DNA of 64,000 bases from Erodium maritimum (lineage: Eukaryota; Streptophyta; Magnoliopsida; Geraniales; Geraniaceae): contig OY997592.1 of assembly GCA_963921825.1 (NCBI GenBank), positions 25,709,730 to 25,773,729 on the forward strand. The letters run 5' to 3'. The position numbers and the translations under genes were made by a program. The notes beneath the pieces are model-generated. The model was given only the letters and a program-made list of their open reading frames with translations, searched no databases and was not told the DNA's origin. Positions within the stretch are counted from its first letter, which is position 1; the number at the start of each line of letters is the position of its first letter. Shown here piece by piece: positions 8,738 through 53,908 of the stretch.

Positions 8738-9719
8738 TTGGGCCTCGGGCTAGGCCAGGCCAGGCTAAGGCCCAATCCGAGTTCGGATCTGGGTCCGGGT
8801 CGGTCTGAACCTGGGTCTGGGTCGGGTCTGGGTCGGGCTCGGGTCAGGTCCGGGTCTAGATTCGGATCCTGGTCAGATTTGGGTCGGATTCAGGTCGGGG
8901 CCGGGTTGGATAGATTATTTAATTAATTAAAGTAAATGATTTAAATTGGAAAACTTAAAGGACCTAATTGATAAATTAAAGGACTTAATTGGTAAATTAG
9001 AGGACTGTTACGGACTGAACCGGGACTGATTACCGCCTTTACTTGTTAAAATCAGACTTTGACCTCGATCGTGGAGAAGACCGGAGGTAGGCCCGGACGT
9101 CATCAACTAGGAGTTCCAGATAGTGTTTGAGAGGTAAGGAAAAGTACTAAACTCGTTTAATTTAAATAACGCTAATAGTATGCCTATAGGATAATAATAA
9201 CCGGAAAGGTCCTAGATTGCATATAGGATGTGATTCACTAGAATAACTACTTTTCAATTACAATAATAATCGGGCGTGTCTTAGTATGCATATAAGATGT
9301 GATTCACTAGAATAACCGCTTTCAATTATGGAAATTGCCGTGCTGGTAGAATGGCTATGTCGAGCCTTAGGATTGCTTGTTGATTGTATTTATTGATGAT
9401 TGTTCACCGTAAGGTCGATGCATGATCCGTCCTTCAGATAAGATAAGAGTCATACTAAACTAATTGAATTATGATGATCGTAATGTAATTGGTTGATCCG
9501 TGTTATGATTGATTGATCGAGTGAATGTTTGAATGTGAATTGGTTGTGCCTAATGATATGATCGGGTGAGTGATAGACCGATGGTGCGTGGTTGGTAAGG
9601 CATGCCAGTAAACTGGTTGTTATGATGTGTTCGTTGTAACGTGTTCGGTAAGTTTGGTTGGTATAGTATGTCGGTGTGAATTGTTGGGTTGATATGTTGG
9701 TATGATGGGTACACGATGA

Positions 9720-9935
9720 TCAGGTTACGTGATAAGGTGTACCTACCTTCCGACTAGGAGTCGGTAAAATGCGTTGTGATTCCATGATAAGGTGTACCTA
9801 CCTTCCGACTAGGAGTCGGTAAAATGTGTTGTTGCCAGTGTTAAGGCGCACCTGCCTTCCGACTAAGTGTCGGTAAAATGAGGGAAGAATCGTGATAAGG
9901 TGCGCCTGCCCTCCGACTGGGTGTCGGTAAATTGC
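9720..9935 (+). repeat. Four ~57-62 bp tandem units in LTR
   Basis: Four tandem copies contain AAGGTGTACCTACCTTCC (or a CGCCTGCC variant) followed by GACTAGGAGTCGGTAAAATG. Each unit has the self-complementary core CCGACT..AGTCGG, so every unit could form a small hairpin. Confidence 0.8.
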
Positions 9936-10370
9936 GTTATAGCTGTGAGATCCAGCGTATTAAGGGGGACTTATGTGTGTGTATTGCTAATGATTTGCTG
10001 TGTGATTGATATTGCTTTACTGTTGTGTGTATATTGGTTGGACGCTGTGACTTGTACCCCGTGCTATGGGAAGATACCCGACCGAGGTGTGTGCCGGTCC
10101 GGTATACCGTTTGTGTGTTTTACCCCGATGTGAGTTCCAGAAAGTCAGTGTACGGATCAGAGTCTTGTGATCTGATATTCAATTATTTCGGTATTCGTGT
10201 GTTCCTTTAAGTGATTCCTTTGGTAAATTCGTTACCTTTCCTATGATCTCCTTGAGTGTTACCTTCTTTAAGTATTGCATTTCTTGTTGATCTTTATTCA
10301 GTGTCTGTCGGATAAGTGTACTAATCGGTTTTATTGGTAAAACGGGGGTTCCTTTACTGCTTTTTCCTAC

Positions 10371-10384
10371 TGAGCGTAAGCTCA
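10371..10384. other. Conserved LTR stem-loop TGAGC-GTAA-GCTCA
   Basis: A five-base-pair palindrome with a GTAA loop lies 28 bases before an acceptor-like TACAG. The same site occurs in every LTR copy that includes this part: 14613-14626, 39523-39536, 60300-60313 on the plus strand and 54494-54507 on the minus strand. Two copies have a longer stem variant with a GTTC loop (5715-5730 and 29504-29519, minus-oriented LTRs). Conservation of both arms across divergent copies suggests a function in the LTR transcript, but the role is unknown. Confidence 0.7.
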
Positions 10385-10685
10385 CCCCCCTTCTTGTTTA
10401 CTGTCTGTACAGGTTTTCTTGATGAGTAGACCTAGCGGTGGTCTCAGGGCCCGGGAGCTCCTTGAGGCTTCGGGAGATTTCATGTTTTAGAGACGTACCG
10501 TACTTTGTACTAAACTACATTTTCTGTCATTCCGTTGGTTTGAGCTTTTGACTCTTAAATTTTGAACTTAATTTAAGTTTTGCGGAGATTGTATTGTTAA
10601 ATTCCTTTTTATTTACTGTTTAAATTATTATTCCTAGTTCACGTCTCGATTCCGGTCAAAACCGGATTCGGGGTGTGACAATTAT

Positions 10686-11937: not shown

Positions 11938-12866
11938 TGTAAGAACCTCCCCCGGCCGATCCCGGTCGAACCGGTGTTTTTTGGCAAAGTTTGACTTTCA
12001 GCCGGAAAAGTCAACTAATGACTCCGGGAGTCGTTCGGGACCTTTTCGGGGCCCAAAAAGCTTAGCCGTCATCACGGTTGGCTTAGTTGGGCCATTTCCT
12101 TTAATTTGACTGTAATATTGGAAAAGTCAATTTTTGGTCAAACGAGGACGTTTTATCGACTAAATCAAAATTTATTAAAGTGCTGGATTTTTTACTAGAG
12201 GCAAGTGGTCCCTACATGGACACTTGTCCATGCTAGCTTGGAGGGGAAGAAAAGAGGCTAGAAGGACCATTTTACCCCTCCCAAATGTCCTTAAGTGGAT
12301 AAAAATCTAAAGGGCTTTTTGGTCATCCATCAAACTAGGTCTTTTTAAAGCTAGTGGAGCAACAATTTCAGCACATTTACAAGTGCTAGCCGAATTCTAG
12401 AGAGAGAAAGTAAGGAGAGGAAGAACAAAGGAGACTTGAAGAAGAAGAAAGGGAGAAAGGAGCAATTTTGATCCAAGTTCTTCATCTTTTCTTCACCAAA
12501 ACCTTGTTTTCTTCATCATCTCACCATCCTAAAGGTATGTGCACTAACACAATCTCATTTCAAGTCATTTCAAGCTTTGGGTTTTCTTAGAAATGCATGA
12601 ACTAGCTAGGTCTTTGAGTTCTATGTTGTTAGATGTTGTCCTAAAGCAATAGATGATTGTTTTTTTTTTTTGTAGAAATCTTTGGGTTTTGGGTTGTTTT
12701 GAGTGGAAAATCTTTTGGGTATTTGTTGGTTTGATGAATCCTATCATGGGTAATGATGGATTGAGGTTATTTGACTATTTTGGAGGTTTTGAATGACTGA
12801 AAATGGAGTTTTGGGCGTTATTTTCGTGAAAAGGAGGCTGAAGGAAGAAGAAGGACGGAACTGGTC

Positions 12867-13005
12867 TGGGCCGTCACGAATCCGTGACGGGCACTTTGAC
12901 GGGAGACGTCACGGCTCCGTGAGGGAGACCGTGACGGCACTCGTCACGAGTTCGTGACGTTATCCGTGACGGGGAGTCTCACGGCTCCGTGACCCTATCC
13001 GTGGC
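12867..13005 (+). promoter_or_regulatory. Cluster of eight TGACG motifs in LTR
   Basis: Within about 140 bases there are eight TGACG or CGTCA cores, mostly inside CGTGACGG / CGTCACG contexts, with related CTCCGTGA words between them. TGACG is the core of as-1/CRE-like sites bound by plant TGA-type bZIP factors. Binding is inferred from the motif alone, and the array may simply be a decayed tandem repeat. Confidence 0.5.
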
Positions 13006-13865
13006 AGACCAGTTTTGGTCCTTTTGAATCCTTTTTTGGGTGTTTTTCGTTTATTTCGAAAGGTGTTTTTGAACCAAACGGTTGGGTTTTTTGACTTAGA
13101 TGTGTGTCTCTTGGTTAGTCGTTAATTATAGTTGTAATTGTGATCCAAGACCTTGGACCCGAGCTCGACGAAGGAGGAGTCCTTGGGAACCACGTGAGAA
13201 GACGGAGATGAAGCTAGCCCGGACGTCAGCAGCTAGGAGTATTTGAGCGTTGGAGATTTCGAGGTAGGGAAGAGTAGTAAACTCCACCTTTACTTTAAAG
13301 AATGCTAATAGTATGCCTATAGAATAATTAATAACCGGAAAGGTCCTAGTTTGCATATAGGATGTGATTCACTAGAATAGCTGCTTTCAATTATATTAAT
13401 AACCGGAAGAGTGAGTATGCATGTAGGATGTGATTCACTAGTTTAATCGCTTTCACTACTTTGGGAAATTGACGTGCTGGTAGAATGGTCACGTCGAGCC
13501 TTAGCATTGCTTATTGAATGTATATATTGATGATTGTTCGTCCTTAGTATCGATGCATGTTTCGTCTTTAGGTTAATACAAGAGTCATACTAAACTAGAT
13601 GAATTGTGATGATTGTATGTGAATGGTTGATCAGTGTTATGATTGATTAAGTTATTGTTGATTGTCAAATTGATTATGCCAAATGGTATGATCGGGTGAG
13701 TGATAGACCGATGGAACGTGGTTGGTAAGTCATGACGGTAAGCGTGATTGTTATTATGAATTCCTTGTGCGTGTTGTGATAAGATTGTTGGGTTTGCTAA
13801 GCTGTGGTCGAACTATGACTTGTGATGCGTGTTATTCTCTTTTTGTGTGTTCCAAGAGGAGTTGT

Positions 13866-14080
13866 GTTCCGGTATGGTACCTACACCTAGGGAGTATGCC
13901 GGTGTGGGGTAGTACCTAGACCGATGGTTTGTGTTCCGGTATGGTACCTACACCGAGGGAGTATGCCGGTGTGGGTAGTACCTAGACTGATGGTTTGTGA
14001 TTCGGTATGGTACCTACACCGAGGGGAATACCGGTGTAGGGTAGTACCTAGACCGATGGATTGTATTTGTACCCCGATGT
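13866..14080 (+). repeat. ~62-67 bp tandem repeat in LTR
   Basis: At least three imperfect units run GGTATGGTACCTACACC, GAGGGAGTATGCCGGTGTGG, then GTAGTACCTAGACCGATGG. A related CCGGTGT repeat appears in the LTRs near 55.2 and 59.5 kb with different unit arrangement. Confidence 0.75.
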
Positions 14081-14922
14081 GAAACCCGGGAAGACGTCCA
14101 GGCCGAAGGGAATTCCGGTATGACTTGAGGTTGTTTACCCTGAGGGGACTGTTTACTGGTTGCTTCATCCCGAGGGTATGCGTTCCTGCAGGAGCGTTTC
14201 CGGGAGGACATCTTATTTCACCCTGATGATCTATGGTCCTTTGGGGACATTTCTGAGAGCTCCGATGATATGTGTCCCCTTAGGAATGTTTCCGGTAGCC
14301 TCGACGATATGTGTCTCCTCTGGGCCGAGGGGCAATCCGATATGATACATTGACCAATTGTGGATCGGAGTATTGTGGTTTAAGTTATCTATGAGACGTT
14401 ATACGTGCTTTCTTTAGTTGTCTTTATTAAAGAATAAACCGCCTCTCCTTTGGTCTCCTTGAGTTATTGTTTTATTAAGCATTGCAATTATTGTTAATCT
14501 TTGATTATGGCGTCTTTTTGGTTAATTGTGCTAATCGGAACCTTTGGATAATTGTACAAACTGTGTTTTATTGCTAAGCAGGAGTTTCTTTTACTGTACC
14601 ACTTTTTCCTACTGAGCGTAAGCTCACCCCCTTTCTTGTTTACTGTTTGTACAGGTTTCCTTGATGAGTAGATCTAGAGTTGGTCTCAAGGCTCGGGAGC
14701 TCCTTGAGGTTTTGGGAATTTTTCTTTCTAGAGACGTATTGCCTTTGTATCAACTATACTTTCTGTGATTCTGTTTATAGAGCTGTTGACTCTTGACTTT
14801 GAATTTCAATTAAGTTTTTCATGGAACTTACTTTATTAAATCTCTTTTTCTTATTATTTAATTATTGTTCTTACTTCGCGTCTCGAGTCCGGTCAAAACT
14901 AGATTTGGGGCGTGACAGGAAG

Positions 14923-19200: not shown

Positions 19201-19440
19201 AAAAAGTAAAGGTTAAATTCAATGCTTAAGGGATTGGAGCTCTCACTCTCTCTAACTGCGTGTCTCATCTTCAATCATTCTCTCAACCCATTAACAAGTC
19301 GTAGTTTCGGTTTGTGTTGTGTTTTGGTGAGCTGTTTCTCTCTCTCTACACTTCCATCACATGCCCCCACCACTCCACCATAAAATTAAATCTCACTTCC
19401 CTCTCCGTTTTTGTGTCTCCTCAAGAAATATAGACAGACC

Positions 19441-21793
19441 ATGATGAATCGTTTTGAGAGTCGGAGATTTTACCGTTTCGATCTCCGACTTGTTGCGATT
19501 CTTGCCGTTTTAGTGGTTCAGTGTGGTGGGCTCAATACAGATGGTGTTTTGTTGTTGTCTTTCAAGTACCGTGTCCTCAACGACCCTCTGCGAGTGCTTC
19601 AGTCCTGGCACTACGCCGACGACACGCCCTGCTCCTGGACCGGAGTCACGTGCGGCGACTCGGCCCTGCCGGAGCCCGATCGTGTCACCGCCCTCGCCCT
19701 CCCGAGCTCCCAGCTTCTGGGTTCAATTCCGGCTGATCTGGGCATGATCCAGCACCTTCGGATACTCAATCTCTCCAACAACTTGCTCAACGGCTCGCTG
19801 CCGGCATCGATTTTTGACGCTAGGGAGCTTCAGACCCTCGACTTGTCCAGCAATTTCATCGCCGGCGACCTCCCTGACGGCATCGAGAACCTGCAGAGTC
19901 TCCAATTTCTCAATCTTTCCGACAATGCCTTGGGTGGGCAAATACCCAATTCCCTCCGGAACCTGCGCAACCTAACCACCGTCTCGTTGAAGAACAATTA
20001 CATCTCCGGCAGCCTCCCAGGCGGCCTCACGGCGGTTCAGGTTCTAGATCTGTCTTCGAATCTCATCAATGGGTCTCTGCCCAAGGACTTCGGAGGCGAC
20101 AGTCTATGGTACCTTAACGTTTCCTACAATAAACTTTCCGGGCCAATCCCGTCGGAGTTCACCGAGAAAATTCCAGGTAATGCCACTATCGACCTCTCCT
20201 TCAACAATCTCACCGGAGAAATCCCAGAATCGGAGGTTTTTTGGAACCAAGAAACAAGTTCGTTTTCTGGTAATCCTGATTTGTGTGGCGATCCAGCTAA
20301 CAGCGCCTGCTCTGTTACTTCTTCTTCTCCGACCTCTCCTCCCGCCATCGCCGCCATCCCCAATTTAGACTCCAGCCCAGACCCACCGGAAAAGCCTAGT
20401 AGACTCAGGGCAGGCACGATTATTGGAATCGTGATCGGAGACATAGTCGGAACAGCCATTCTGTCTGTGATTTTCTTGTATGTCTACAAGTGCAAGAAAA
20501 ACAGGACCTTTGAGAAGGAAGAAGCCAGTGAGAGCGGCTCGGAGTCGGAACACATGACGGCGTGGTCCTGTTTGAGAAAAGGAGACAGCTCCGACTCCAA
20601 TGAAAATGGTGGTGCATGTAAGCAAGAAAGCCCGGAGAAGGAGAAGAGCAGCACAAGTGGGACCTTGGTGACTTTCGACGGAGAAAAGGAGCTGGAGCTG
20701 GAGACGCTGCTCAAAGCCTCGGCTTACATCCTCGGCGCCACTGGCTCCGGCATAATGTACAAGGCGGTGCTCGATGACGGAACCGCCCTCGCCGTCCGCC
20801 GGATCGCCGACAACAGCGTCGAACTGTTCAGGAATTTCGAGAGCCAAGTTCGAGTCATGGCCAAATTGGTCCACCCCAATTTGGTTCGGGTTCGCGGGTT
20901 TTACTGGGGCACCGACGAGAAGCTCATCATCTACGAGTATGTCTCCAACGGTAGCCTCGCCAACGCTCGTTACAGTAAGTGCTCTGTTTTAACATAAAAG
21001 TCAACGGTCAGATCATACTGATAGTGTTGGGTCAACCACGGACCATAATTCTAGGGTCAACCGTTAGCGACCAACTTTATATCTTCTTTGAAAATGACTC
21101 ACTACTTACTACATAGTCAATTTTGTTACTCCAGGAAAAATAGGATCTTCTCCTTGTCACATACCTTGGGTGGTACGGCTCAAAATAATAAAAGGAATTG
21201 CTCGCGGGTTATTGTATCTCCACGAGAAAAGGCACGTGCATGGGAACTTGAAGCCCAGCAACATCCTCTTGGGTTCCGACATGGAGCCGAAAGTCGGAGA
21301 TTTCGGGCTCGAAAGGCTCGTTACAGGCGATACAAGCTACAAAGCCAACACATCCACTCGGAATTTCGGGAGCAAGAGGTCCACGGCTTCGCGGGACGAC
21401 CACACCATGCCTAGCCCGAGCCCAAGCCCGAGCCCGAGCTCGGTTGGGTGCGTGTCGCCGTATCATGCTCCTGAATCGCTGAGGAGCCTCAAGCCCAACT
21501 CCAAGTGGGATGTGTATGCGTTTGGGGTTATACTGCTTGAGCTGTTGACCGGAAAGGTGGTGGTTTTGGATGACTTGGGCCATGGGCTTGGGCTCGGGCT
21601 CGAGGATAAGGCCCGGGTCTTGCGGATGGCTGATGTGGCAATTCGTGCTGACCTGCAAGGGATAGAGGAGTCCTTGACAACTTGCTTCAAGTTAGGGTAT
21701 AGTTGTGTATCACAAGCACCACAGAAGAGACCCCAAATGAGGGAAGTTGTGCAAGTTCTTGACAAAATCCCTTGTCCATATTATTATGGTTGA
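19441..21793 (+). CDS. LRR receptor-like kinase, probable pseudokinase (At4g37250-like)
   Basis: Two exons, 19441-20974 and 21135-21793, encode 730 residues; the 160-bp intron is GT..AG and joins in frame. ATG at 19441 (context ACCATGATG) is preferred because the frame upstream has only a non-ATG start. The N-terminus has a hydrophobic signal, then an LRR N-cap (PCSWTGVTC), about six leucine-rich repeats (residues ~75-265), a membrane segment (~323-348) and a kinase-like domain (~430-725). The intron position and order of parts match the plant LRR-RLK group of At4g37250/At2g23300. Key catalytic residues are missing: the usual Lys is Arg (AVRRI, residue 453) and the HRD loop is HGN (547-549), while DFG (567-569) is kept. 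Phosphotransfer is therefore unlikely, and a scaffold or co-receptor role at the plasma membrane is inferred. A retroposon ends about 230 bp upstream. Confidence 0.93.
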
Positions 21794-26951: not shown

Positions 26952-29121
<2,170 letters not shown>

Positions 29122-29226
29122 CTACGTACGGTGGTGATGGTCCTCTACATACGGTGTGGTCCGGGACAACAAGATCTGCAAACGGATCAATGGGCCACGG
29201 CCTACGCTCATCCTCAACAATCATGT

Positions 29227-32200
29227 TGTCACGCCCCAAATTCAGTAGAACCGAACCCGGAACGCGGACTTTTAAAACAATAAAACATTTTCAAATCTTT
29301 TAAATAAATCACTTTAAAACCACCATTTACTTAACCAAAATAATTATTTACAACTCAAAAGTACGTCCCAACAAGTGGACAAAATATAAGGTATACGTCG
29401 CTAGACTCAAAAGTAAACCCGGACTCCCGCTCCTAACTCTTCAAGCTTCGGAAGCTCACCTAGTCCATCCCGCGACCAGTACCTGTAGGAAAAGCAGCTA
29501 GGGGTGAGCGTTCGCTCACCACCACGGATAACAGACTGACTACGGCATACTTAGCAGACAATGTCGGTAACACCAACACCAACCCAACACCGGGGACTAC
29601 TATCCCCAAACTCAAGTAACCCGACTGACACACAAACCGTTACTTTCCTTAACCGACTCAACACTCGGACTCGTAATGTAGACCCGACACAACGATTGAC
29701 GACCTCCTCCAAAGACACGACAGATAACCACGCAACACCCAAGATCACTAAGGATCGCACACCAAACTAGATCACAAAGGATCGCACTCCAGCTGCTCAG
29801 TAACCCCCCTCGCCCTTTACTGATCCCTGTCAGGCCAGGCGGTCAACCTGTCGCCACTTTTGCTGATCCCTGTCAGGTCAGGCGGTCGACCTGTTGCACT
29901 TTTCCCGACACAAAGTCGGATCAGGCTGTCGACCTGTCACCACCACGCACGCGCGGCCAGGACCCCTTTCCTCACGGGCGGGCCCTCTACCCCGTCTGAA
30001 CATGCAGACGCGTGCGATCACAGGACCCCCGTTATTATGAAGCGGGCCCCCAACCTCAAGTAACCACAATCACAATCACAAACAAAGTTCAACAAACAGC
30101 AACAACACCAGTTTGACACTCCACAGGCACTCATGGCCACTCAAGACACCAACGGTAAAACACGGGCTCAACAACCCCACGGGCACTCATGGCCACCCAA
30201 GACACACCAACGGTAACTAACGGGCTCAACAACCCCACGGGCACTCACGGCCTCCCAAGACACACCAACAGTAACTCACGGGCTCAACAACCCCACGGGC
30301 ACTCATGGCCACCCAAGAACACCGACAATAACTCACGGGCTCAACAACCCCACGGGCACTCATGGCCACCCAAGACACCAACAGTAAAAACACGGGCTCT
30401 CATGGCCACCCAAGACACAAACAGTAAAACACGGGCTCTCATGGCCACCCAAGACACCAACAGTACAACACGGGCTCTCATGGCCACCCAAGATACAAAC
30501 AGTAAAGTACGGGCTCTCATGGGCACCCAAGACACAACTACACAATCAACCTCTGGGCATAACCAATGCCTCCAGCAGTTCTAATCTCAACAGGCTCACA
30601 ATCAACCTCCGGGCATAACCAAATGGCTCCAGTAGTTCTAATATCGAAAGTTCACTGCTCCCACGACACTACTAAGTGTCACATGCATTTCTATTGTTCG
30701 ATACGTTCCCGTATCATACGACACCACCCGGTGTCGCCTGCCTTTCTAATATTCGATAAACTTACTTAACCCACGACACCCAAGTGTCACATGCATTTCT
30801 ACTGTTAACTTTCCCTAGTCAGGGCCGAGATCCGGCTACTTTTCCCTACCTCTTGAAGCGTGTCACAACCGATCCTCGCTCTCCGGCAATGCTCCAAATT
30901 TCCCGCTTAGCCTCCTCTTTCCACGGTAAGCGACACGGTCTACAATTATTACAATTAACACAATTTTTAAGTAAGCATGCGAAACCTGAATTTAAGGAAT
31001 TAAACGCCCAAACTCAACCCCGACAATGTCGATCACTCCCAACCTTCCCAATTACTCGACATTGTCGATAATGGGCTCGGAAAAGCCCGATTCGCCCGAC
31101 ATGGCGAATCTGCCCGGGTTTTGAAAACGCCCTTCCGGGGCTCCGAAAATTCCCGTTTTCGTTTCTACGGTCTTAGAATAATTCAAGGGTTCCTATGCAC
31201 TCGACGGAATCCAATTCCGACTTCCGAGTAATTTAGTTTGCGTTTAAAGATTCTAAACCCGTCAATTACAACTTTCACAATTTAATTCCAAATTTCGATC
31301 CGGGTGTAGATTAATTACTTGGGGAACGTCCTAAACCACCCGAACACGAAAACTCGACACCCGAGCATGTGGGCCCCACCCGGCCACAATTAGGAAAATT
31401 TCCTTTTCGCCCTTAAAAGTCTCCAACAAACCCCACACCTCAACTCCACCATAAACTACTCATTTTAACTCAAACCCTAACTTTTAAACTTTACAAAACG
31501 AAAATCGGTTAGATGCTCACCGTAGAGAATGACGGTGTGAACTCGATGCTCCTATCTTTGAGACGATCCAACGGTTTGACGAACGAGAAAAGGAAAAACC
31601 CAAACAAGCTCCTTCTCTTTTCTCTCTTCTTCTCCTTCTCCTTCTCTCTCTAAACTTTCTATTTTTTTTCTCTTTTGAAATGTGTTAGCCGAACACTCAT
31701 ATGTCTCATCCTTTTTGTTTTGTTTCAAACCACACATTTTTACCATAATTACAAAACTAACACCACCTTTCCATCTCTTGTTTTGTTCAATGTTACCTAA
31801 CACCACCACATTGGTGACATGTGGCAAGTGGGTCCCACACTTTTTGGAAAATATCTTCTAGATAATTTCCAATCAGATTCGCGAAATTCGGCTGTTTCGG
31901 GCCCCGAACGGGCACTTTTTCCAAGAAATTATGAAACTTCACGGGCTACAAGGAAACAGCTCAACTAAGACCTCTGTGACGACGGCTAAACTTTTTGGAT
32001 CCAAAACGGACCTCGAACGGACCAAAACGTCGCTCGGTTGACTTTTCCAGCAAAAAGTCAACCTTTCCCAATTTGGTCAGAAAGTTGCCCTGAGTCCCCC
32101 GGAACTCACTTAGGTCAATGTCGGGTTCAATTTAAGTCCGGTATGACCCTCGGGGTCAAATTTAGGTTCACTTAAGTGTCTATCCAAAAATTTTAAATTT

Positions 32201-32249
32201 TCCTGTTTTTCGCAGGTTTGACTTGCGTTGACCGGGAGTGGTTCTTACA
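29227..32249 (-). mobile_element. Solo LTR inserted in the Harbinger transposase
   Basis: On the plus strand it runs TGTCACGCCCC to TTCTTACA, flanked by CATGT at 29222-29226 and 32250-32254. It is 3023 bp. It has the long-stem variant hairpin (29504-29519), the acceptor-like CCTGTAGG nearby, a tandem array (30120-30540) and, on its own strand, a donor-like AGAGGTAGGG near 30860. The outer ends match the copy at 11938-14917 best. Confidence 0.85.
30120..30540 (-). repeat. Tandem repeat array in LTR (CATGGCCACCCAA units)
   Basis: About nine imperfect units. The left units are ~48-50 bases, with GGCTCAACAACCCCACGGGC. The right units are ~38-39 bases and share ACACGGGCTCTCATGGCC. This shows unit shortening within one array. 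The same family of array is at 6317-6815. Confidence 0.85.
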
Positions 32250-33721
32250 CATGTTGTGTAGGATCACACAAGCAGTCATGATCACTGCGAGTGAGCCCCT
32301 ATCCCACATTCGACCCGGGCGAGTAACGATGTGAAACCGGGCCTGTAGAACTCCAAACGCCCGTTCGATGTCCTTCCTACACGCCTCTTGGTATCTAGCA
32401 AAGCATCGTTGTTTCAGCGTTTGTGGAGCATGTATGGACTTCACAAATGTTTCCCAAGCAGGATAAATTCCATCTGTCAAGTAGTACAGGGTTTCGTATT
32501 CTCTACCGCTGATCTTGAACTTCACATCTGGGGCGAAGCCTTTTACTGCTTGGGAGAATAGTGTAGACCTATTTAGCACGTTGATGTCGTTGTTGGAGCC
32601 CGGTGTCCCGAAGAAAGCGTGCCAGATCCAAAGGTCTTGGGATGCAACGGCTTCGAGCATGATTGTGGGGACGTTCTCGTGGTCCCTACTTGCGAACTGT
32701 GCAGCCCATGCCATAGGGCAGTTCTTCCAATCCCAATGCATGCAGTCCAGGCTCCCTAGCATCCCCGGAAAGCCGCGCTTTTCGTTGATTCGCAACAACC
32801 GTTTTGTATCGTCCACGGTCGTGCGTCGTAGATAGGTCCGCCCGTAAACCTTGATGAGACCAATGCAAAACTTCTTCAAGCAGTCCAGCGCAGTGGTCTC
32901 CGCTATTCGCAAATACTCGTCGCAATCATCGGCTGGACTTCCATAACATAGCTGACGAAGTGCTACCGTGCACTTCTGGTGTGGAGTGAAAGAGGGCATC
33001 CATGTAGCATCCTTTCCGTTACGGAAGTAGGCGTACCGGCCACTCAAACCATTAATGATCCGAAGGAACATGTCCCTCGACATCCGGAACCGTCGCCGAA
33101 ATTGTTGGTCGCTGTACACCGGTTGAGGCGCGAAGTAGTCGCGGATCAACCCTTCGTGTGCATCTTCGCAGTTGCGCTCAATCACTCTCTGCTTGGGTCT
33201 CGGCGCCGACATTGAGCTCTCCGCCTCATCATCATCCTCACTCATTGGCTATAAGGCTGCCATCAGTTGATCCTCTAATGCTTGTTGTGTTGCCTCCAGA
33301 TACCTATCCATCGCGGCGTCTATTTCTTCTGTCATTTGCTTCATTTCGTCTAGCGTTGGAAGACTCGCCATCAAAAAAAATAGAAATAGGAAAAAATTAT
33401 AGGATTTGGAGAGGAATAGAGGAATAGAAGCTTGAATGAAGAGAGGAGAAGTGAGATTTCAATTGGGGCAGATCTGAATTTATAGGAAATTGTTGGGCAC
33501 TATGGGAGTCGGCATCGCCACGTGTCGGGTCGTGACTGGCCAACCGACTAGCTGTTGGCGCCAGACACGACCAGCTGCGTCGTTGCCAGAACCAGCAACG
33601 ACTAGCAGCAACGGCACCGCAGAGACGGCTTCCAGACACGACCAGCCGTGCCTACGCGTCGTGTCAGGGCCGTGTCTACGCCAGACACGACGCGTAGGCA
33701 CGACCCGTTGGAGCTGCTCTA

Positions 33722-34735
33722 AGCTTTGAGTTCCTTCTCTATATCCATTGGAGAGACGTGGTACTTAATTGATGCATTGTTTCACTGGTCATTACAACGA
33801 TACATCCAGTGGCGGAACTACATATTAACGTAAAAATAATACAAAATAACGTTAAAATTATTATTATGTATAAAAACTTAATACTTATGACAACACATGA
33901 CGTTTAAACTTCATATTTTAGAAATATGATAAAACAATTTCATTGTCAATACGATAAAACATGTCTTTTTTTTATGTGCACGATATTTATCGGCCTCTTG
34001 ATTTTTTCTTCTTCTTATCAAAAGATGGAGTCAGATTTTTTCAAAACATATGTTCATGACTTAACAATTAATTTTAAGATTACTAAATTTAAACTGATAA
34101 TAGTCTTAGACCTTAAAGAATAATTGTTCTGAAAACTCAATTGAATAAAAGTCTTAAATTATAAAAATATAAGCTTTTGTAGGAATTAAAAAAATAGAAA
34201 ATATAAAAGAATTACGAAAATACAAAATTAATGTAATAAAAAGACATACATTTATAAATATAAGGGAACAAAATATAGAAGTTAGAAAATTTACGATTCA
34301 AATAGAGTTTTATGAAAGGAAATACAGAAAAATTATTAACAAACTAGAATTTTATGGAAGGAAATAAAGAAAAATTAGATGATATTAGATTTCTCAACTT
34401 TTCAGGAGGGGCACTCATAGTAAAAAAAAAAGGTTTTATATACGGAAATATAAATATATAGGGTATAATATATGTTTTTCTATAATTTAAGGGGGGCACG
34501 TGCCCCCCGGGCCCTTCATGAATCCGCCTCTGGATACATCGAGCGACGCGGGTTAAAAAACTACAATTGAGGACTAAAGTCGATAAGAAATTGGACACAA
34601 ACACTACACTAGATTTTAGCTTATGCGACGGAATAGTAAATTACCGTTACGGGAGTTGGGCATTATGTGTCACAATAGAGACCAATTATTACGACAGTAA
34701 CTTATATTGGCGCAGTAAAGAATGTGTTTTACCCC
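33722..34735. repeat. Copy 2 of the ~275-bp duplication, split by a hAT element
   Basis: Homology to 28845-29121 starts just right of the Harbinger TAA, pauses at 33806, resumes at 34533 after the insertion and ends at about 34735, where the copies diverge after GTGTTTTACCC. Confidence 0.85.
33807..34532. mobile_element. Non-autonomous hAT-type element, 726 bp
   Basis: The ends are CAGTGGCGGA and TCCGCCTCTG (inverted, one mismatch). The 8-base duplication GATACATC lies at 33799-33806 and 34533-34540. The related empty site at 28921-28928 has it once, directly confirming the insertion. An 8-bp TSD with CA-G-GGCGGA ends is typical of plant hAT elements. The interior is AT-rich with no transposase. 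Confidence 0.88.
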
Positions 34736-36560: not shown

Positions 36561-36837
36561 GGCTTATCATCGGAATTGTCGGAAATGCCTCCAAAGGACC
36601 ATAAGTCATAGGGAACCAATATTTCACGAAATAATCCATCCAACCGCCCCGTAGGGTCCCATAACCAATCAATATCCCGTAGGATCTGCCAATGCCCTTA
36701 GGCTCCAATAATCAATCAATATCCCGTAGGATCTGCCAATCCCCTCAGGCTCCAATAATCAATTCTCGTAATATCCAGTAACCAATGCCCTCAGGCTCCA
36801 ATACTCAACCAATATCTCACGAAATCTGTCAAACCCC
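36561..36837 (-). repeat. LTR fragment forming inverted repeat with 38687-38999
   Basis: This stretch is the reverse complement, at roughly 90% identity by eye, of 38687-38999 in the adjacent LTR. Shared landmarks are GGAGCCTGAGGGCATTGG units, GATCCTACGGGATATTGATT, and TATGGTCCTTTGG. The two arms are separated by about 1.85 kb. Confidence 0.8.
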
Positions 36838-39800
36838 ATTTATTTCTAAAGGGCTTTTTTGTGAAATCAAAACGTTGGGGTAGGAAAGTGAAACCTTGTG
36901 TTTTGGTTTAAAAGAAAAAAAAGAAATAAAAAAGGAGGAAGAAGAGCTGTTTGGGGCCAGCCAATTGGGCCAAGCCCAGAGTGTGTGCAAGCCCAGTCTG
37001 AATACCGGGCCCAAGCCCAATATGGTTGTGCTAACCCTAGCTACTGCACTGTTCACTCTTCAGTGTACGCACACAACTCGAGGTGCCTCTCTCTCTCTCT
37101 CTCGAAGCTCTCAGCTTCTTCTCCCTCTCGTGTCTGTACAGCTACCACGCCGGCGACCATTGCCGTACGCGAAGCAGACCACTGCCCGGACACGAGGAAA
37201 CGCTGAAGCCTCCGTCTGTCCGTGTCAAGAACGCAACTCCGCCGGTGGGACGCGATTCGCGACAGATCTTGCTCACCTTCGCCGTTGGAGGTCTCGAGTT
37301 GTCCTTCTCTTCCGAGCTCGGCTCTCTCCCCAATGGCGTGAGGGAAGACTACCCAAGGTGCGTGAGGTGTCGTCCGGCCTTCTTCTCCCTTCTCCAGGTT
37401 TTCTGCCACCGTCTGCTGCCGTGTTCGAGGACGAACCCTCGCCGGTGAACACGAACCGGATCCTTCGTGCTCGGTTTAGGTCTGTGGGGGCATGCCGGAG
37501 CTTCTGATGTTCTCTCCCTGTCACGGCTGTCACTCCCGACGTCGCACGGTCCCCTCGAGCTCCTCGCTGCCGCCGTCTCCGGCGAGCTCCACCCAACCCT
37601 CACCGTTGTCGCACTCCGTCTCCGGTTCAGTCAGGCTAGGACACATCGGGCCTTGGGCCAGCATCGAGAACGGGCCTTGGCCCATTACAAGGAGGGGCCT
37701 TGAGATCGGGCAGGCCCAGGTTGGACCTGGATCAGGTCAGACTCGGGTCAGCTTGGTTCCGGGTCCGGGTCTGGACCAAGTCTGGGTCGGGTCTGGGCTC
37801 GGATCTGGGTAACCCGGTTTCAAAGAAAAATGTTTTAAAATCAGTTTTAATTAACGGATTTAATTAATTCAAGGTGAGAAATTAAAAGTTAATTTTGGTT
37901 AAATCAGTGGACCTTTGGACAATTATTGGTTTTGATTGGACTTTTCTTTTTCAAACCTAGACGGGACTTCGCCCGAGCACAAGGGCTTGGACCCGAGCTA
38001 GAAGAACGAAGATCACGCCGGAACCCGTGTGAAGAACGGAGTTATGGCCACTCGAGCTTTTCATCAGAGTATTATTAGAGGAAGACCACAAGGTAGGGAA
38101 AGTTTAACTTCTTATTTAAACGCTTAGTATGCATATTAGGTTAATAAAATCGGAAAGGTCCTAGAATTGCTTATAGGATGCGAACAACTAGAATAATCGT
38201 CTTCAAATTATTAATAACTAGATGTGTCTAGAATGCATGCTTAGGAGGAGAATAACTAGTGTAACTCGCTTTCAATACTTGGGAATTGTTTTACTGGTAG
38301 AGAGGTCGTGATGAGCTCTCGGATTAGTTGTTGGGCTAGGTTCGCATGCTTGGAACTAGTTTACTTTATGTTTGATTAGTTGAATGTTTACTTGATTGGT
38401 TGAATGGTTGTGTGGTTATAATTGTTGATTGAACGGATGATCGAGTATGACTGGTTGTGCCAAAGGGGTACAATCAGGTGATCGATGTACCGATGGTTCG
38501 TGACAGGTAAGTATACGGTAAGTGTGGAGTGTTATTGGATGTCTTTGCTATGATGAAAGTGTGATTTGAGAAGTGTTTATTGATGGATGAATTATAGTGT
38601 ATTTTCCTTATTCTTGAATGTTTGTTTGTTCGGTTCTGTACTACACCGGGGGGGGGTAATCCGGTGCCGTTGTGGTGGTGGAGTTTGGCAGATACTGTGA
38701 GATATTGGTTGAGTATTGGAGCCTGAGGGCATTGGTTACTGGATATTATGAGAATTGATTATTGGAGCCTGAGGGCATTGGCAGATCCTACGGGATGTTG
38801 ATTGATTATTGGAGCCTGAGGGCATTGGCAGATCCTACGGGATATTGATTGGTTATTGGACCCTACGGGGCAGTTGGATGGATTACTTTGAGAGAGATGG
38901 TTACTTGGTTTCACCCAAGTGTATGCGTCTGATGGGAGCACTACCTTGGTTTCCTATGACATATGGTCCTTTGGGGGCATTTCCGAGAATTCAGACGATA
39001 AGCGCCCATTTGGGATTGTTTCCGGTGCCCCGACGCATGTGCCTCCTCTGGACCGAGGGAAAATCTGATATGATATGGGTACTCTGGTAGATCGGAATAT
39101 GGGAACCGATGTGATCCCAGAATCTACCCATGGATCGGAGGCTTGAGAAAGCGAGTGGTTGGCGTGATATTAATTGCTCCCATTTTAATGAGTTATGATT
39201 CATTATAGTATTTTCATGGAATCTTTTAAGTCACTGTGATCGTTGACAAAGCGATGCTATTCCATTACACTGATTCCATAGTTTTTCATCGATTAATAGT
39301 GTTTACTCGTTTCTAGTTGTGATGGTTTTCTATTTTATTATAATGTTCTCTATTTGTTCTCCGGGAAGTTATCGTTATCCTTGAGAATGCGCTATTGTTC
39401 TCGTTTCTTTTATCTGTTTATTATACCTTTTGGTCTAAGGGTTTTAAGCACTTTTGTGACATCGATCTAAAGTAATTTTATTATTAAACTTGGAGGCTAA
39501 AGTTGTTTACGATTTTCCCTACTGAGCGTAAGCTCACCCCTATTTGTTTATTTATTGTGTGTACAGGTGTACTTGAGATCTGGGGAATTCGAGGCTCGGG
39601 AGCTTCCGGATGTCTCGAGGGTTGTATTAGAGATGTGTTGGTCCACATTATTGAACTTTATTTATCCTATGTTACTTGTCAAATTTTGATACTGTATTTG
39701 AAATTTAGGATCGAATATTTGAGAAATATTTTGGACTCGCTTTCAGCTTTAAAAGAGTTTATTACTGTTTCGCTACTTTTATCTTGTTTGCTTCAGGTCA

Positions 39801-39839
39801 CGTCTCGAGTCCGGCTAAAACCGAATTTGGGGCGTGACA
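36838..39839 (+). mobile_element. LTR copy, 5' end lost
   Basis: It ends GGGGCGTGACA at 39839 and has all the family landmarks: GC-rich leader (37060-37640), GGGTC-rich stretch (37720-37820), donor-like AAG/GTAGGG at 38092/38093, conserved block (38120-38345), repeat region (38700-38870), stem-loop (39523-39536) and acceptor-like TGTACAG ending at 39566. The start does not have the TGTRAR-ACC terminus and there is no matching 5-bp repeat across the element. Its left part was replaced or rearranged next to the inverted LTR fragment. Confidence 0.75.
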
Positions 39840-43463: not shown

Positions 43464-44018
43464 AAGTAGCTATAAAAAACGCTCTCGTCTACCCTAGCCA
43501 CCAGAGTCCATTCTACCCTAACCATCAGGGTCTAGCTGTCGCTACCGTCGCCACCGTCGACACTCTCCGGCCTCCTCGCCATCCTCACATTCGACCTTCT
43601 CGCCACCGTCGCCTCTGCAACGCAGCAGACGCCGCCCCGCTCGTCTCACCCGTCTCGCCGCCCGTCCCCCTCGTTTCCATCTGATTTTTGCCGCCCCCGA
43701 CGACCTCTCCCATCTGTCTCCACCCATTTCCGGCCAGCCAGATCCAGATCTATCGCTCCACGTCCATTTCTCATCGGAAATGACACTACCCGGCCAGATC
43801 CAACCCGCTCTTGAAGCGCCTCAGCAGCACGGTCCACCTGGCGTGCTAGGACTCTTGTCGGCGACCTCACCGCGTCGTCTGAGGTGCAGCCCCCTTCCCT
43901 GCCAGACCCCCGGCAATGGACGGATCCCCTGGCTCTGAAGGATAAACCAGGCTCGAGCTAGGTTGAGTCCGAGGGTTTTGAGTTCCCGGCGATCGGCCTG
44001 GACCAGGGCGGACGCCAC

Positions 44019-44951
44019 ATGGTGGCGTATGAGAGTCCTCGGGACATGCTCTCCTTATCCCGACCTCCAGCTCCGAATGAGGTGGACAGATCCCGCCATC
44101 TGACAGAGCCGCCGTCGGACACGAACCCTCGACATTCAGGCGGACGAGGGCCGACTGGCAGTCCAACGGAGGTCCAACCGACCCGCATCGCCCCGGTCCC
44201 GGACTGGGAGGACGATGATGACGAGATCGTGGTCTCGGAGGAGGGGGTTCCACTCTTCACTAAGGGAACGTATCAGTTTTCCCTTGCAGCTAGGGTTGCA
44301 GGAGACCGGGTCCACAACCAGAACACCGTCTGCGCAATGATGCTCCAGAAATGGAAAGTGACGGGCATCCAGGTCGAGTTCATGTCCCTGGAAGTCACAG
44401 GCTACCATTTCCCGTCCGCTGAGACGATGGAAAATGTCCGCCACAGGGGCCCCTGGAGCTTCAAGGGCTTTCCCCTCCTTCTGGAGCCCCTCAAGCAATT
44501 TGTTCGGGCTAATGATATCAGTTTTCACCACGTGGAGCTCGGGGTCCGGGCGCTCAACATACCGGGAAATGCCAGAAATGACTATGTCCGAGGCCTCATC
44601 GCTGCCAGCATTGGTACCCAGGTCCTGTTGGCCCCAATCCCGTTTGCTCGTCGGGAGGACATGTTTTTGTGGCTACGGGTTCGGATGGAGTTACAACGAC
44701 CTCTACGGCGGAGACTTCGCCTCCGATTCCCAGTTACCACAACATCTGCTGTGATTGATTTACAATATGAAAGGGTAGTAGACTTCTGTCGCATGTGTGG
44801 AATGTTGACCCATAGTCTTTCGGGATGCACGACCCAGCTGGCAGGGATTGGTCGGGAGGAAGTTCGGTACGACCGATCTATACTGGCCCCAAATCAGATG
44901 AACGTGGATAGGCTGCTGGGGACGGTCTGGAATACACCCCCCCCCCGGTGA
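44019..44951 (+). CDS. LINE ORF1-type protein: DUF4283 plus zinc knuckle
   Basis: The 310-codon frame has an acidic N-terminus (DWEDDDDE), then a DUF4283-type region (~residues 85-215, with TVCAMMLQKW, SAETMENVRHRGPWSFKGFP), and a CX2CX4HX4C zinc knuckle (CRMCGMLTHSLSGC, ~residue 268). This pair is characteristic of plant L1-like ORF1 proteins and their derivatives, which bind nucleic acid. It ends right after a run of ten C's (44937-44946); the next frame (44948-45514) looks like the rest of the same protein, so a slip in the C-run probably split one longer ORF. Confidence 0.75.
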   Translation: MVAYESPRDMLSLSRPPAPNEVDRSRHLTEPPSDTNPRHSGGRGPTGSPTEVQPTRIAPVPDWEDDDDEIVVSEEGVPLFTKGTYQFSLAARVAGDRVHNQNTVCAMMLQKWKVTGIQVEFMSLEVTGYHFPSAETMENVRHRGPWSFKGFPLLLEPLKQFVRANDISFHHVELGVRALNIPGNARNDYVRGLIAASIGTQVLLAPIPFARREDMFLWLRVRMELQRPLRRRLRLRFPVTTTSAVIDLQYERVVDFCRMCGMLTHSLSGCTTQLAGIGREEVRYDRSILAPNQMNVDRLLGTVWNTPPPR

Positions 44952-47572: not shown

Positions 47573-47962
47573 ATGGCCGGCATAGCAGCCTACCTCTAGC
47601 GCCATGAGGAAGATATGGTTTTGGTGTTATGTTGGCTACAGGATGCCCATCCGGAGCCAAATAATAGGTATTGGCCGGAAGTGTTCGCAAATTATGTCCA
47701 AAATGCACCGATCGACGCCCCGTCGCGCACACATAAGCAGTGCAGGGACCATTGGCAGCGGACATCCCAGAAAATCCACCGTTTTGAATTATGTTACCGT
47801 GAAGCAGTTCAGGCTCGCCTTCTGGGACAAACGGAAAATTTTCTTCGATCTGCAGCGACGGACCTGTATTTTTCCCGACATGGCCACCACTTCACGAAGT
47901 TCTCGCTTTGGGAGATCGTTAAAGACCAGCCGAAATTCCTCCAGTACGTTCACGAACTGTAA
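47573..47962 (+). pseudogene. Second SANT/Myb ORF1-like relic
   Basis: From ATG 47573 the frame has TAG at codon 9, then stays open to 47962. It shows a Trp-rich Myb-like arrangement (CWLQDAHPEPNN, HKQCRDHWQRTSQKIHRFE) and ends with a LWEIVKDQPKFLQ motif equivalent to the VKNEPKW motif of the first relic. It has its own upstream TATAAAAG (47451-47458) and CT-rich leader. It is clearly diverged from the first relic, so it is not a simple recent tandem duplicate. Confidence 0.65.
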
Positions 47963-49391: not shown

Positions 49392-52300
49392 TTACTTTTG
49401 TTCAGAATGCCTCGTGATGGCCCATGAGTCCAGAGTTCTTGCTTCATGCTTTCTTTTACTACGAGAACTTCTTTTTGCTCTGCGTGATGAACGCTTCACT
49501 GTTTGGTCTTTTTCATTACCTGGGACCTCGGGAGGAGCATCTGGCCATGGTGTGTGCTTAGATGGGACAGTGATGTCCAAAGGAGGATCAATTACCCATC
49601 TGTTTGACAAAATAGCTATTAGTATAGATTGGAGACGCAAAGGTTGGCTTGTGCAAAGAGTGGAACTCACTTACAACACCACAAAGTAAATAAAGCGTGA
49701 TAAGAAACAGAGAATATCTTAACAGATTATTCAGTTACATTTTAGCGAAGAAAATCAGTATTGATTTGATCATCCTGGATCTAGCAATGGTGTACCCTGA
49801 GAAAGCCACATTGATACTTAACTTGTGACATAGTCCATCCACGCGACAAACATCTTTCAAATGGACAATGGAGTATGTATTCAAATATATTATAAGGTTT
49901 TCAAAACTAAGTCAGGTTTTGAAGAAAATCAACAATTTCTATGTATGTTGATCACCACAAACAATCTATGCTTAAAGAATGTTATTTCATTAAATAAGAT
50001 AATCATAACCAAAAGGGTAAGTTGGAGTAGTTTCAAGTTTTGCCATGTTAATACATAGCCAGAAATAACACAAATAGGCTATACGGTATACTGATTATAC
50101 TGGAAGTGATACTGCTGCAAGGATCCCAGTGGGATCCCTCTATACTACCAATAGATTAGTTGGAATAACATTAAGAGTTCGAAAATTTTGAGGATCAAAA
50201 CAAGAAAGACAGTTGAGGTGCCTACTGTTCCTAAGGATTAAAAATTAGTGAAATTACATCAAAAATAGTAGGACACTCGTTTTGGAATATAGAGAGTATC
50301 ATAATGTAACAATAAATGGAGATATTTTTATTGTAGCTTTATTTGTAATACATTTTGGCTTGTACACCAAGGGGAATTAAGTTGCATGGTTTGGTTGATA
50401 AGTAGAGCCCAATAAGAAAACAATCTCATCAGTAGTGAAAAGTATAAAGTAGTCCAGAACCTTATACTACTGATTGGAACCTAAATGTACATACAAGACT
50501 GGCAAAGAATTGTTTACTAGAAGATCAACTTCTATAGTTCCATAATTAATCTTGGCGGAATTACTAAAACTGCCCAAATGAATTGGGCACGAATGATAAG
50601 CTACCTAATGTTTAAAAATATGCCACGAGATGCCCATTGAATGGGACATGTTAGCTTTTTAGGCAAAATGATGAATTTTCCCTTACAATTAAAAAGACCA
50701 TAATACCCTCCATTCACTTTTAAAAGTTAAACAAATACCCTCATATTCTTCAATAATATATTTTTAAAATCAGAATTGAAAATAAAAAATTGTTTTGTAA
50801 CATTAAATTATATTTTTTTTATAAAACTTGAATTATTTTTGAAAAATTATAAATTTGAATTACCTTTTTAAAAATAATTATCAAAATAATCCGGATTACT
50901 TTAAAAAAAAATAAATGAAGATTATAATATAATTAGAATAATTAATTAAGTAAATTGGATGAAACAATCACTATTTTTATAAAGTCTAAATATTTATTTT
51001 GAAAAAGAGATTTGAATAAATTAATTAAATCTGGATTAATTTCCAAAAATAAATTAATTTTGTGGAGATAATTGAGTAAGTTTTATAAAATTTGAATAAA
51101 CTAACTGGATATTTTATTTATAAAATCTGAATAAATAAAATAATTAATTTTATTTTATCAAACATGAATAATAAAATGTTAAATTATAAATTAAAAAACT
51201 GAATTATTATTTTTGTACAATATTTGTCAAAAAAAATTAAAAGAATTGAAAAAATATGAACATTAATTTCGAGAATTAAAATTCAAAATTGTTTTTAAAT
51301 ATTTATTTACAGAAAAAGGGTTGTTTAGGATTTTTGAAAAATATAAGTCTCATGTGTCCGGCGCATAATACTAATAATAAAAGAATATTCCGTCCATTTC
51401 AACAGAATATTCTGCCATTTTTCATTTATTTCAACCTAATGTACCCATTTCATGAGGCAGTTCTTGGCACGTTTTTAAACACATGGCAATTGTTCTTCTG
51501 CGCCCAATTCATTTGGGCAGTTTTTAGTAATTCTCCCTTGATCGTTTGAGCAAGGGTATATGATAGAACAAAAATATACAAATGACTTCAAAATTTAGGG
51601 GGTAAAAGACTAACCCTTGAGGAAATTTGCTATCCGCACGAGCTTCAACCCGGAGCCACCAAAGCAAAATCTGGCGCCCACAGCTCCCAAGAGGCTCCAC
51701 CACAGAAGGATCATTCAGCAATGCTAACGGACTGTCTAAATCCTCATCAGCTTCACCAAGTGTATCGAGATCCTTAACCCAATTTGGTTTATCTTCAGCT
51801 TCATTCCAGAGCAACCTGGAATTTATCACAAACCCGGACCACTCCAGCTTCCTGGGGAGGACTACTGCCCTATCATCATTGTGAATTGCACTCTTTCCAG
51901 CATATGGCAGCGAATTAAAGATGTGCCAACCTATCAACTGATTGGATGAATTGCAAGCTGGACCTTGGATGGGCATTGGCGGGGTCTCCTCCCCCTCCTT
52001 TTTGGATTCATCTGTATCACCAGAATGAACAAGAATCCCAACTGAAACGGCACCAATCCATTTCACATTCTGGATCTCATCAAAGAGCTCCATGCTATGA
52101 ATATTACTATCATCCACAAACACCACCACCCCATCCAGTTTCTCTTCTTGCACAACTCTGGTTCATCACAATTCACAAAGCGAGCAAGTTAAATTCACAT
52201 TCTAGCAACTACCCTAGTGCTACATCTAAATCGTAAGATTATCAACTAAGCAAATTTGAAAACAAATTGAAGCCAGCAACAGTAGACACTAGTCTTAGTT

Positions 52301-53513
52301 GAGTCAATTCCACAATCCAGCAACTCCTTCAGACCTAAACTAAACAGTAAGATTCAAAAATGGAAACTATAGCTGAAACCTAAATGTTTAGTACTAGCAA
52401 CAGAAATTGTGATTAAATTATAGGGTTAATTACCTTTTGTACCCCTATTCTATTGGTAACATACCTTTTGTACCCCTGCGTTTTGTAACGTTCAATAACA
52501 CTCCTCCGTTTTGGTAACTGTCATTTAGTACTTTTTATGAATTGGTCACAGATTATAATACCTCTTATGTACTGATAACAGAACATTTAATACCCCTTGT
52601 GAATTGGTCACAAATCATCAAAATGGCGTAAACTTAACCAAGATTTTGTCCAAAGCGTTACCAATACATCAGGGTACTAAAGGAGTGTTACTAATATATA
52701 AGAGGTACTAAAGGTAATTAACCCTAAATTATATGCAATCCTTGAGTTGAATTTGATTTCACCTCTATACAGAAATGCCTAGACCATTTCTCTCTACATT
52801 TATGCAAAGGAAGGAGGAACTCACTTCAAAGCACGAAGCCGCATCCGAGCCTCCATCTTGTGGCGATCCTCCCAGGAAGGCGGCATCTGCTGCTCAAATC
52901 CAATGTGGATGGTCCGAAGCCCAGACTTGTCGAGAAGGATGGCTGTCTCGTTGGTAGTCCCACCAGCTTCCACCACAATCCAGACGAGATCGTAAGGCAC
53001 CAGCATCAGCGAGTGCATCACGCCGGTCAGGTGGAGTGCCTGGAAAGTCCTCACATAAGTAGGCGTCACCGCAATCACCGTCCTCTTCACCCCCGACTGC
53101 CTTCTCTGCTCCATCTGCACCCTCTCAATTATCCGGTGCGCCTTCATCACCTCAACCGGGTCCGGGTGCGGCCACGGCCGGATCCGGATCCCGTGCCGCC
53201 CGACCACCACACGGCTGCTAGAGCTAGAACTAGAAGATCCCCCTGCCACCGTTTGATTCGCCGGAAACTCGGCCAGGTGCAAGGTCTCGACAATCTCGGC
53301 CGTGGGCCGGAACGGCGCCGTGTAGAGGTTTGTAGACGCAGTTGAGAAGAGGAAGAAGAAAACCAGGCGAGAGAAGCGAAATCCAAGTACAAGGCTGATG
53401 AGGCAACAGAGGGCGTGGAGGACGAGCCAAAATATCGCCGCCGGAGACTTTGAGGAGGCATCGGCCGTGGAATCTCCTCCCCGGAAGATGTTGCTCCGGC
53501 GGTTGAACTTCAT
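49392..53513 (-). CDS. IRX14: GT43 xylan glycosyltransferase, IRX14-like
   Basis: Three exons on the minus strand (53513-52825, 52157-51615, 49599-49392) join in frame to 479 residues with GT..AG introns of 667 and 2015 bp. The N-terminus is that of a type II Golgi protein: short basic cytosolic part (MKFNRRSNIFRGG) and a membrane anchor (~26-55). The GT43 domain follows (RTVIAVTPTY, ~150; LVWIVVEAGG; then VVVFVDDSNIHSMELFDEIQ with the acidic pair at 245-246, and WSGFVINSRLLW). The C-terminal exon carries GWVIDPPLDITVPSKHTPWP and a basic tail (RSSRSKRKHEA), typical of IRX14/IRX14-L. In Arabidopsis IRX14 works with IRX9 and IRX10 in a Golgi complex extending the glucuronoxylan backbone. A direct catalytic role for IRX14 itself is debated. 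Both introns hold inverted-repeat transposons. Confidence 0.93.
50555..51538. mobile_element. TIR element in IRX14 intron 2, ~980 bp
   Basis: The left end GAATTACTAAAACTGCCCAA and right end (inverted) GAATTACTAAAAACTGCCCA extend into a shared AATGAATTGGGC, about 33 bases of terminal inverted repeat. The interior is very AT-rich with no coding. A 9-base flank comparison (TTAATCTTG / TTGATCGTT, six matches) hints at a Mutator-type TSD but is weak, so the superfamily is left open. Confidence 0.65.
52421..52726. mobile_element. MITE in IRX14 intron 1, 306 bp
   Basis: The ends are TAGGGTTAATTACCTTTTGT and (inverted) TAGGGTTAATTACCTTTAGT, flanked by AATTA on both sides. The interior repeats GTACCCCT/GTACTAA words in both directions. 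No coding. Confidence 0.75.
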
Positions 53514-53908
53514 TTTGTCTCTCCGATGGCCGTGATGAAGAAGGATTGGGAAGGCCGAGCTTATTTGTAAATTGCCGCGTCCCGATTGTTGCAGGAAAGG
53601 GAAAGGCCAGAGTTGTAGCTGTTGTTGGCTTAATCATTAAAAAATTAAGCATTTCTTTGGATTTACGATTCAGTTGAATACTTATATTTTGCTTCCATAC
53701 TTGTCTTTTTCAAATATTTTTTTAAATGTTATGTCTCATTCATCATTTTCAAATAAGTCGAAATATAAATTGAGATTATAGTCAGGGTGATAAACTCATG
53801 GAGAAGAGATATAATGACTGATCTATTTAGGAAAAATTTGATAAATTTAAAAGAAATTAAAATTTTTGTAAATAGTGGGATTTGAAACCAAGTCCGTGAG
53901 GAATCAAG

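Follow-up and report, generated by a model that had tools for sequence, protein, structure and literature searches.

The window analysed here, a stretch of 64,000 nucleotides from the Erodium maritimum genome (C5:25709730-25773729), carries a Harbinger-type transposase gene split by a solo long terminal repeat (LTR), beside a papain-type cysteine protease gene of at least three exons (26976-28696, minus strand). Also present are an LRR receptor-like kinase gene (19390-21790, plus strand) and a glycosyltransferase family 43 gene (51527-53633, minus strand). An ORF at 43962-44948 has DUF4283 and zinc-knuckle matches in Pfam, as is presumably the case in plant LINE ORF1 proteins, and another at 47600-47959, which has no Pfam match, resembles what we take to be the orf1 protein of plant Harbinger elements. 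Long LTRs recur along the window. A solo LTR at 4566-10680 (duplication ATTAT) contains an opposite solo LTR at 5438-8737 (duplication TTGGG), which is related to the one in the transposase, and another with Del-like ends lies at 11938-14917 (duplication GGAAG). Pieces related to long LTRs are found at 36562-39839, 54185-56523 and 59281-60579, where a quick search gave no convincing matching 5-bp duplications. Rfam yielded no matches at gathering score within the window.

A minus-strand ORF (33245-32193) encodes 350 residues and matches Pfam family PF04827 with an E-value of 4.5e-95; the main transposase frame also matches PF13359 (E 3.2e-10), and the two matches identify a plant Harbinger-type DDE/DDD transposase. 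Motif reading assigned D167, D220 and E294 in this frame, which we take to be catalytic. Only the first 332 residues are native: sequence comparison bears out the earlier note's observation that the final 18 (CKNHSRSTQVKPAKNRKI) derive from the LTR. The same note had placed the split gene at 29122 to 33371. The frame is not open from 33371, being interrupted by an in-frame TAG at 33249-33251, and at its other end the native frame is truncated at about 29129. A working transposase is unlikely to arise from the 350-residue frame with its LTR tail, and the whole locus would very likely be dead DNA. The transposase had no match among solved structures at E 0.1. Relatives sought in viral and prokaryotic contigs gave 4 and 14 pattern-matching stretches, respectively, none confirmed by tblastn, and a literature text search found no occurrence of the strings HNMIVED, HNMIIED or ILHNMI.

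Table 1 Features of the split Harbinger element and its flanks, in window coordinates.
Feature	Position	Strand	Basis or remark
Extra right-flank copy in place of the lost left end	28841..29122	+	Empty-site reading ...CACACG TAA CCTTTGAG...
Junction filler (probably templated)	29123..29128		Comparison with other copies
Transposase continuation (IVEDER...GPSP), native from ~29129 rightward	29129..29221	-	Comparison with other copies
CATGT, left copy of the 5-bp LTR target-site duplication	29222..29226		Sequence
Solo LTR, 3,023 bp, Ty3/gypsy type, Del/Tekay-like ends	29227..32249	-	U3 end 32249, U5 end 29227
18 LTR-derived residues closing the 350-residue frame	32196..32249	-	Sequence
CATGT, right copy of the 5-bp LTR target-site duplication	32250..32254		Sequence
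Main transposase frame	32250..33245	-	332 native residues; PF04827, PF13359
Opening 40 residues of the transposase frame, ATG 33371	33249..33371	-	In-frame TAG ends frame
Right terminus of the Harbinger element, minus strand GAGCAGCTCCAACGG...	33690..33719	-	Like ends in other copies
TAA, 3-bp target-site duplication at the Harbinger right end	33720..33722		Other copies mostly TAA or TTA
Right flank, second copy of the sequence, split by the hAT-like insert	33720..34734	+	Sequence comparison
GATACATC, 8-bp duplication around the hAT-like insert	33799-33806 and 34533-34540		Sequence
hAT-like insert, 726 bp, ends CAGTGGCGGA...TCCGCCTCTG	33807..34532		8-bp duplication

The insert in the transposase has TG...CA ends and is bordered on either side by CATGT, the duplication that the earlier note had reported. 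Among 8,558 pairs of borders chosen at random with this spacing, 6 have equal 5-mers. A single LTR with such ends and an identical short target-site duplication constitutes a solo LTR. It shares the orientation of the transposase and lies directly after the duplicated site. The gene had been described as cut at a single codon; insertion after HNM holds, but the LTR lies between two codons and not inside one.

To place the insert among its relatives we searched the plant's own genome (763 Mb), scoring the best 40 of 18,506 first-look candidates, which gave 75 matches, and fetched 20 loci, the window's own among them. Both LTR ends were present in 14. Perfect 5-bp duplications flank six of these two-ended copies (including that of the window), four of five duplication bases match in L014 and L016, the duplications of L011 and L015 do not match, and L008, L010, L017 and L019 have internal sequence attached, in the form of a primer-binding site (PBS) or polypurine tract (PPT). 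The PBS-type sequence, GCTTGGTATC, which we read as the primer-binding site for initiator tRNA, lies next to the U5 end in 4 of the 20 fetched copies (L003, L008, L017 and L019). A PPT lies at the U3 end of two (L010 and L020), and in both an RT_RNaseH domain lies about 1.3 kb away. Across separate copies, with no single complete one read, the same LTR borders a PBS, pol and a PPT. Integrase, chromodomain and RT palm domains were not found in the retrotransposon pieces examined; a 3.5-kb interior piece of one copy held 10 ORFs with no Pfam match, as was true of four out of six ORFs beside LTRs.

Because its relatives adjoin a PBS, or a PPT with RNase H, the 3,023-bp unit is an LTR. The same copies speak against the idea that it forms a separate type of non-autonomous element and is not the LTR of a longer retrotransposon, as does a self-comparison of 29227-32249 (E 1e-5), which found internal repeats only and none linking its two ends. 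We regard that idea as very unlikely, even though no copy with an intact, complete gag-pol was found among the interior pieces examined, a point in its favour.

A genome search with 32255-33719, in which the best 40 of 2,688 first-look candidates were scored, recovered 39 further copies, at 91-95% identity, in addition to that of the window. In every one of the 29 other copies fetched first, the two halves of the transposase are contiguous and the 5-bp site is single; the apparent gap of 2 in L033 merely reflects a match that begins at base 3. Ten copies fetched later agree by coordinates (10/10). The protein across the site in these uninterrupted copies reads HNM-IVEDER. Beyond the LTR of the window, the piece starting at 29224 translates as MIVEDERRPWPIDPFADLVVPDHTVCRGPSPPYVG followed by a stop codon, with IVEDER resuming in frame as had been proposed. 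The interpretation that a Harbinger transposase was cut by a solo LTR of about 3 kb is thus confirmed, because uninterrupted copies survive in the same genome (29/29).

Excision and joining in silico, the check suggested for this reading, gave a concordant result. The 66 residues up to HNM score 99.3 bits against PF04827 on their own, 100.9 bits with the LTR tail and 113.0 bits with the empty-site tail, a gain of 13.7 bits on joining. Ten shuffled tails scored 97.8-106.1 bits, and none reached 113.0. These empty-site checks used short joined stretches and, above all, untouched paralogues, with no consensus built. The 35-residue downstream piece alone matches no Pfam family, which is what one would expect if the transposase had never been joined across the insert and IVEDER were a chance resemblance. 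Given the gain on joining, unmatched by any shuffle (the best at 106.1), and above all the 29 uninterrupted copies, which refute it, we assign that explanation practically no probability. An assembly artefact joining unrelated repeats is extremely unlikely: the region is repeat-rich, but misassembly would hardly produce an exact 5-bp duplication in frame, at a site that other copies have whole.

The surviving copies also define the family. A complete element measures about 1.95 kb between terminal inverted repeats (TIRs), which read GAGCATCTCC on the left and GAGCAGCTCC, or near it, on the right; the window copy retains the right TIR only. Its right end recurs in the same or similar form in other copies (e.g. 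GTTGGAGCTGCTC followed by TAA). The exact left TIR pattern is present in 15 of the 29 other copies, and in 11 of those 15 the trinucleotides on the two sides are identical, TAA or TTA (L023, L039, L040 and L046 differ), consistent with a 3-bp TAA/TTA target-site duplication; TAA lies to the right of the window copy. The family transposase has 446 residues, with its start near the place that corresponds to ATG 33371; the longest frame begins around there in 20 of the 29 copies. Eight retain the intact 446-residue frame. HNM-IVED falls within the longest frame in 15, and the other 14 stop short of LHNM. No orf1 is present in the family element, the 1.95 kb being mostly filled by the single 446-residue frame. 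Many near-full, transposase-only copies exist (L022-L060), with a mean pairwise divergence of 4.6% among the 28 other copies compared.

Besides the in-frame stop, the earlier note missed damage at the left end of the window copy. To the left of 29129 the window no longer matches family sequence, and relative to L050 about 374 bp are lost, comprising some 40 C-terminal codons and the left TIR. Among the 40 copies examined, 38 retain the left end, the exceptions being L032 and the window, both truncated within the left 472 bp. This stretch is unbroken in 35 copies; it is rearranged in L027, with both ends present, and split by an LTR in L048 and L049, where the left end is kept. The last two, on C1 and C2, are Harbinger copies each split by a single LTR-like insert, of about 3.4 kb (L048/L061, duplication GGTGT) and 3.2 kb (L049/L062, duplication TACGG); the two insertion points are only a few bases from one another, in the C-terminal stretch that is also hit in the window. 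Independent solo LTRs thus lie within the last ~80 of the left 472 bp in 3 of 40 copies. We do not claim a hotspot for LTR insertion at the C-terminus of the transposase, the counts being small and the comparison post hoc; a target preference for this region is possible.

A copy of the element's right flank stands in place of the lost left end. The two flank copies are equal at 254 of 279 aligned columns (the overlap of two aligned pieces being counted once), and TAA opens both; in the left copy it is a single TAA, with no element. The left copy therefore represents, by its sequence, the insertion site while still empty, and the right copy the same site once filled. This flank sequence was found at only two places in the 763 Mb searched, both in the window, although very common words were skipped and its rarity is not fully proved; the search returned three matches, the divided right copy accounting for two. 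What divides it is a 726-bp insert, missing from the left copy, whose 8-bp duplication and CA...TG ends agree with the hAT features given in a table of PMC4423477. Between left flank and element, the letters at 29122-29133, CTACGTACGGTG, are identical to a family stretch lying about 23 bp deeper in the element, and the junction probably bears a short templated filler.

Of 278 bases compared between the flank copies, 24 differ. Had the flank been duplicated at insertion, the window copy's own branch would predict 13.6 differences by FastTree or 19.1 by a star estimate (29 sequences including the window; L039 was excluded, its match ending before the right end is reached). The probability of 24 or more is 0.007 or 0.16, respectively, and drops steeply for later dates. 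The duplication is thus as old as the insertion, or older, because the observed differences exceed the 13.6-19.1 expected. This age, which a template on an empty allele would demand, fits repair from such an allele in a young insertion, with some allelic divergence, and is also compatible with a tandem duplication preceding the insertion.

We give an even chance to the likeliest route, on which the left scar would be the trace left by a single aborted repair event. After the young element had been broken, the left chromosome arm would have copied 282 bp from the homologous allele, past its empty site; the arm would then have released and been end-joined, with the short templated filler, into the element interior. 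Two observations weigh against this: the flank divergence is on the high side even if duplication and insertion coincided, and the filler match is short. A tandem duplication of the flank, perhaps with the upstream region of the protease, might instead have come first, with the Harbinger element entering the second copy and a later deletion running from the first copy into the transposase. The flank divergence, slightly above the post-insertion prediction, favours such a sequence of events, and protease genes in plants are often arranged in tandem. It requires two events, duplication and deletion, instead of one, and tblastn found no second significant protease match within the window; we consider it a serious possibility that falls somewhat short of an even chance. 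If the aborted repair is true, the pre-insertion site has been preserved beside the filled one, and the process would account for DNA transposons that are missing one end yet have acquired a duplicated flank.

The repair route set aside, we hold with high confidence that the locus records a nested LTR insertion into a Harbinger element plus the loss of an end. A 1.95-kb transposase-only PIF/Harbinger element entered a TAA beside the papain-type protease gene. A Ty3/gypsy retrotransposon with Del/Tekay-like LTRs of about 3 kb then integrated just past the HNM codon, duplicating CATGT, and LTR-LTR recombination, the standard route, would have removed its body to leave the solo LTR; we infer this step because a single LTR stands within a perfect duplication. 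Separately, the left end was lost and a right-flank copy now occupies its place, and a nonsense codon in the transposase and the hAT-like insertion in the flank were added. The clear order of events put forward by the earlier note stands for its main part, Harbinger first and LTR second; the loss of the end could precede or follow the LTR.

As a record of nested transposons the locus is ordinary but readable, with one instructive scar. It provides a clean worked example: the exact insertion can be read off, since this genome still contains copies of the host transposon that were never interrupted. It also carries a warning for annotation, as a 350-residue frame here closes with 18 residues of LTR. 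The flank duplication at the truncated end is a testable case of cut-and-paste transposon decay, and a limited search of titles and abstract openings found no published description of such a duplication at a truncated Harbinger end.

The transposon and the LTR belong to known kinds. The MtPH elements of Medicago truncatula, PIF/Harbinger transposons, share with the window family the transposase superfamily and the 3-bp TAA/TTA duplication (PMC2213677). Some MtPH copies also hold nested gypsy-like insertions, so that nesting of this sort in Harbinger elements is already in print, and the listed MtPH-E elements lack orf1, like the family described here (PMC2213677). The window family differs in that its element is only about 1.95 kb long and in its TIRs, GAGCATCTCCAATGG and GAGCAGCTCCAACGG, which are without the motif G(N)5GTT that the MtPH authors required (PMC2213677). 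The LTR has the length and conserved U3 and U5 ends that fit the Del/Tekay lineage, short of proving it. Its 3,023 bp fall inside the lineage's range of 1.1-4.4 kb, its U3 end TGTAAGAACC agrees at 8 of 10 positions with TGTAACACCC, the commonest Del/Tekay U3 end in sorghum and maize, its U5 end is of type A, with GGG at -10 to -8, and solo LTR formation is common to lineage and window (PMC4029996). For the scar, the nearest cases found in the literature are filler segments at DNA-transposon excision sites in rice (PMC4423477) and the tandem duplications that arise in C. elegans helq-1 mutants when homologous repair is abrogated (PMC8654963), with PMC10288884 and PMC7251063 bearing on the subject as background only. 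In contrast to the rice and C. elegans cases, what has been copied in the window is a 282-bp stretch of flank belonging to the element, which itself stays in place, truncated (PMC4423477, PMC8654963).
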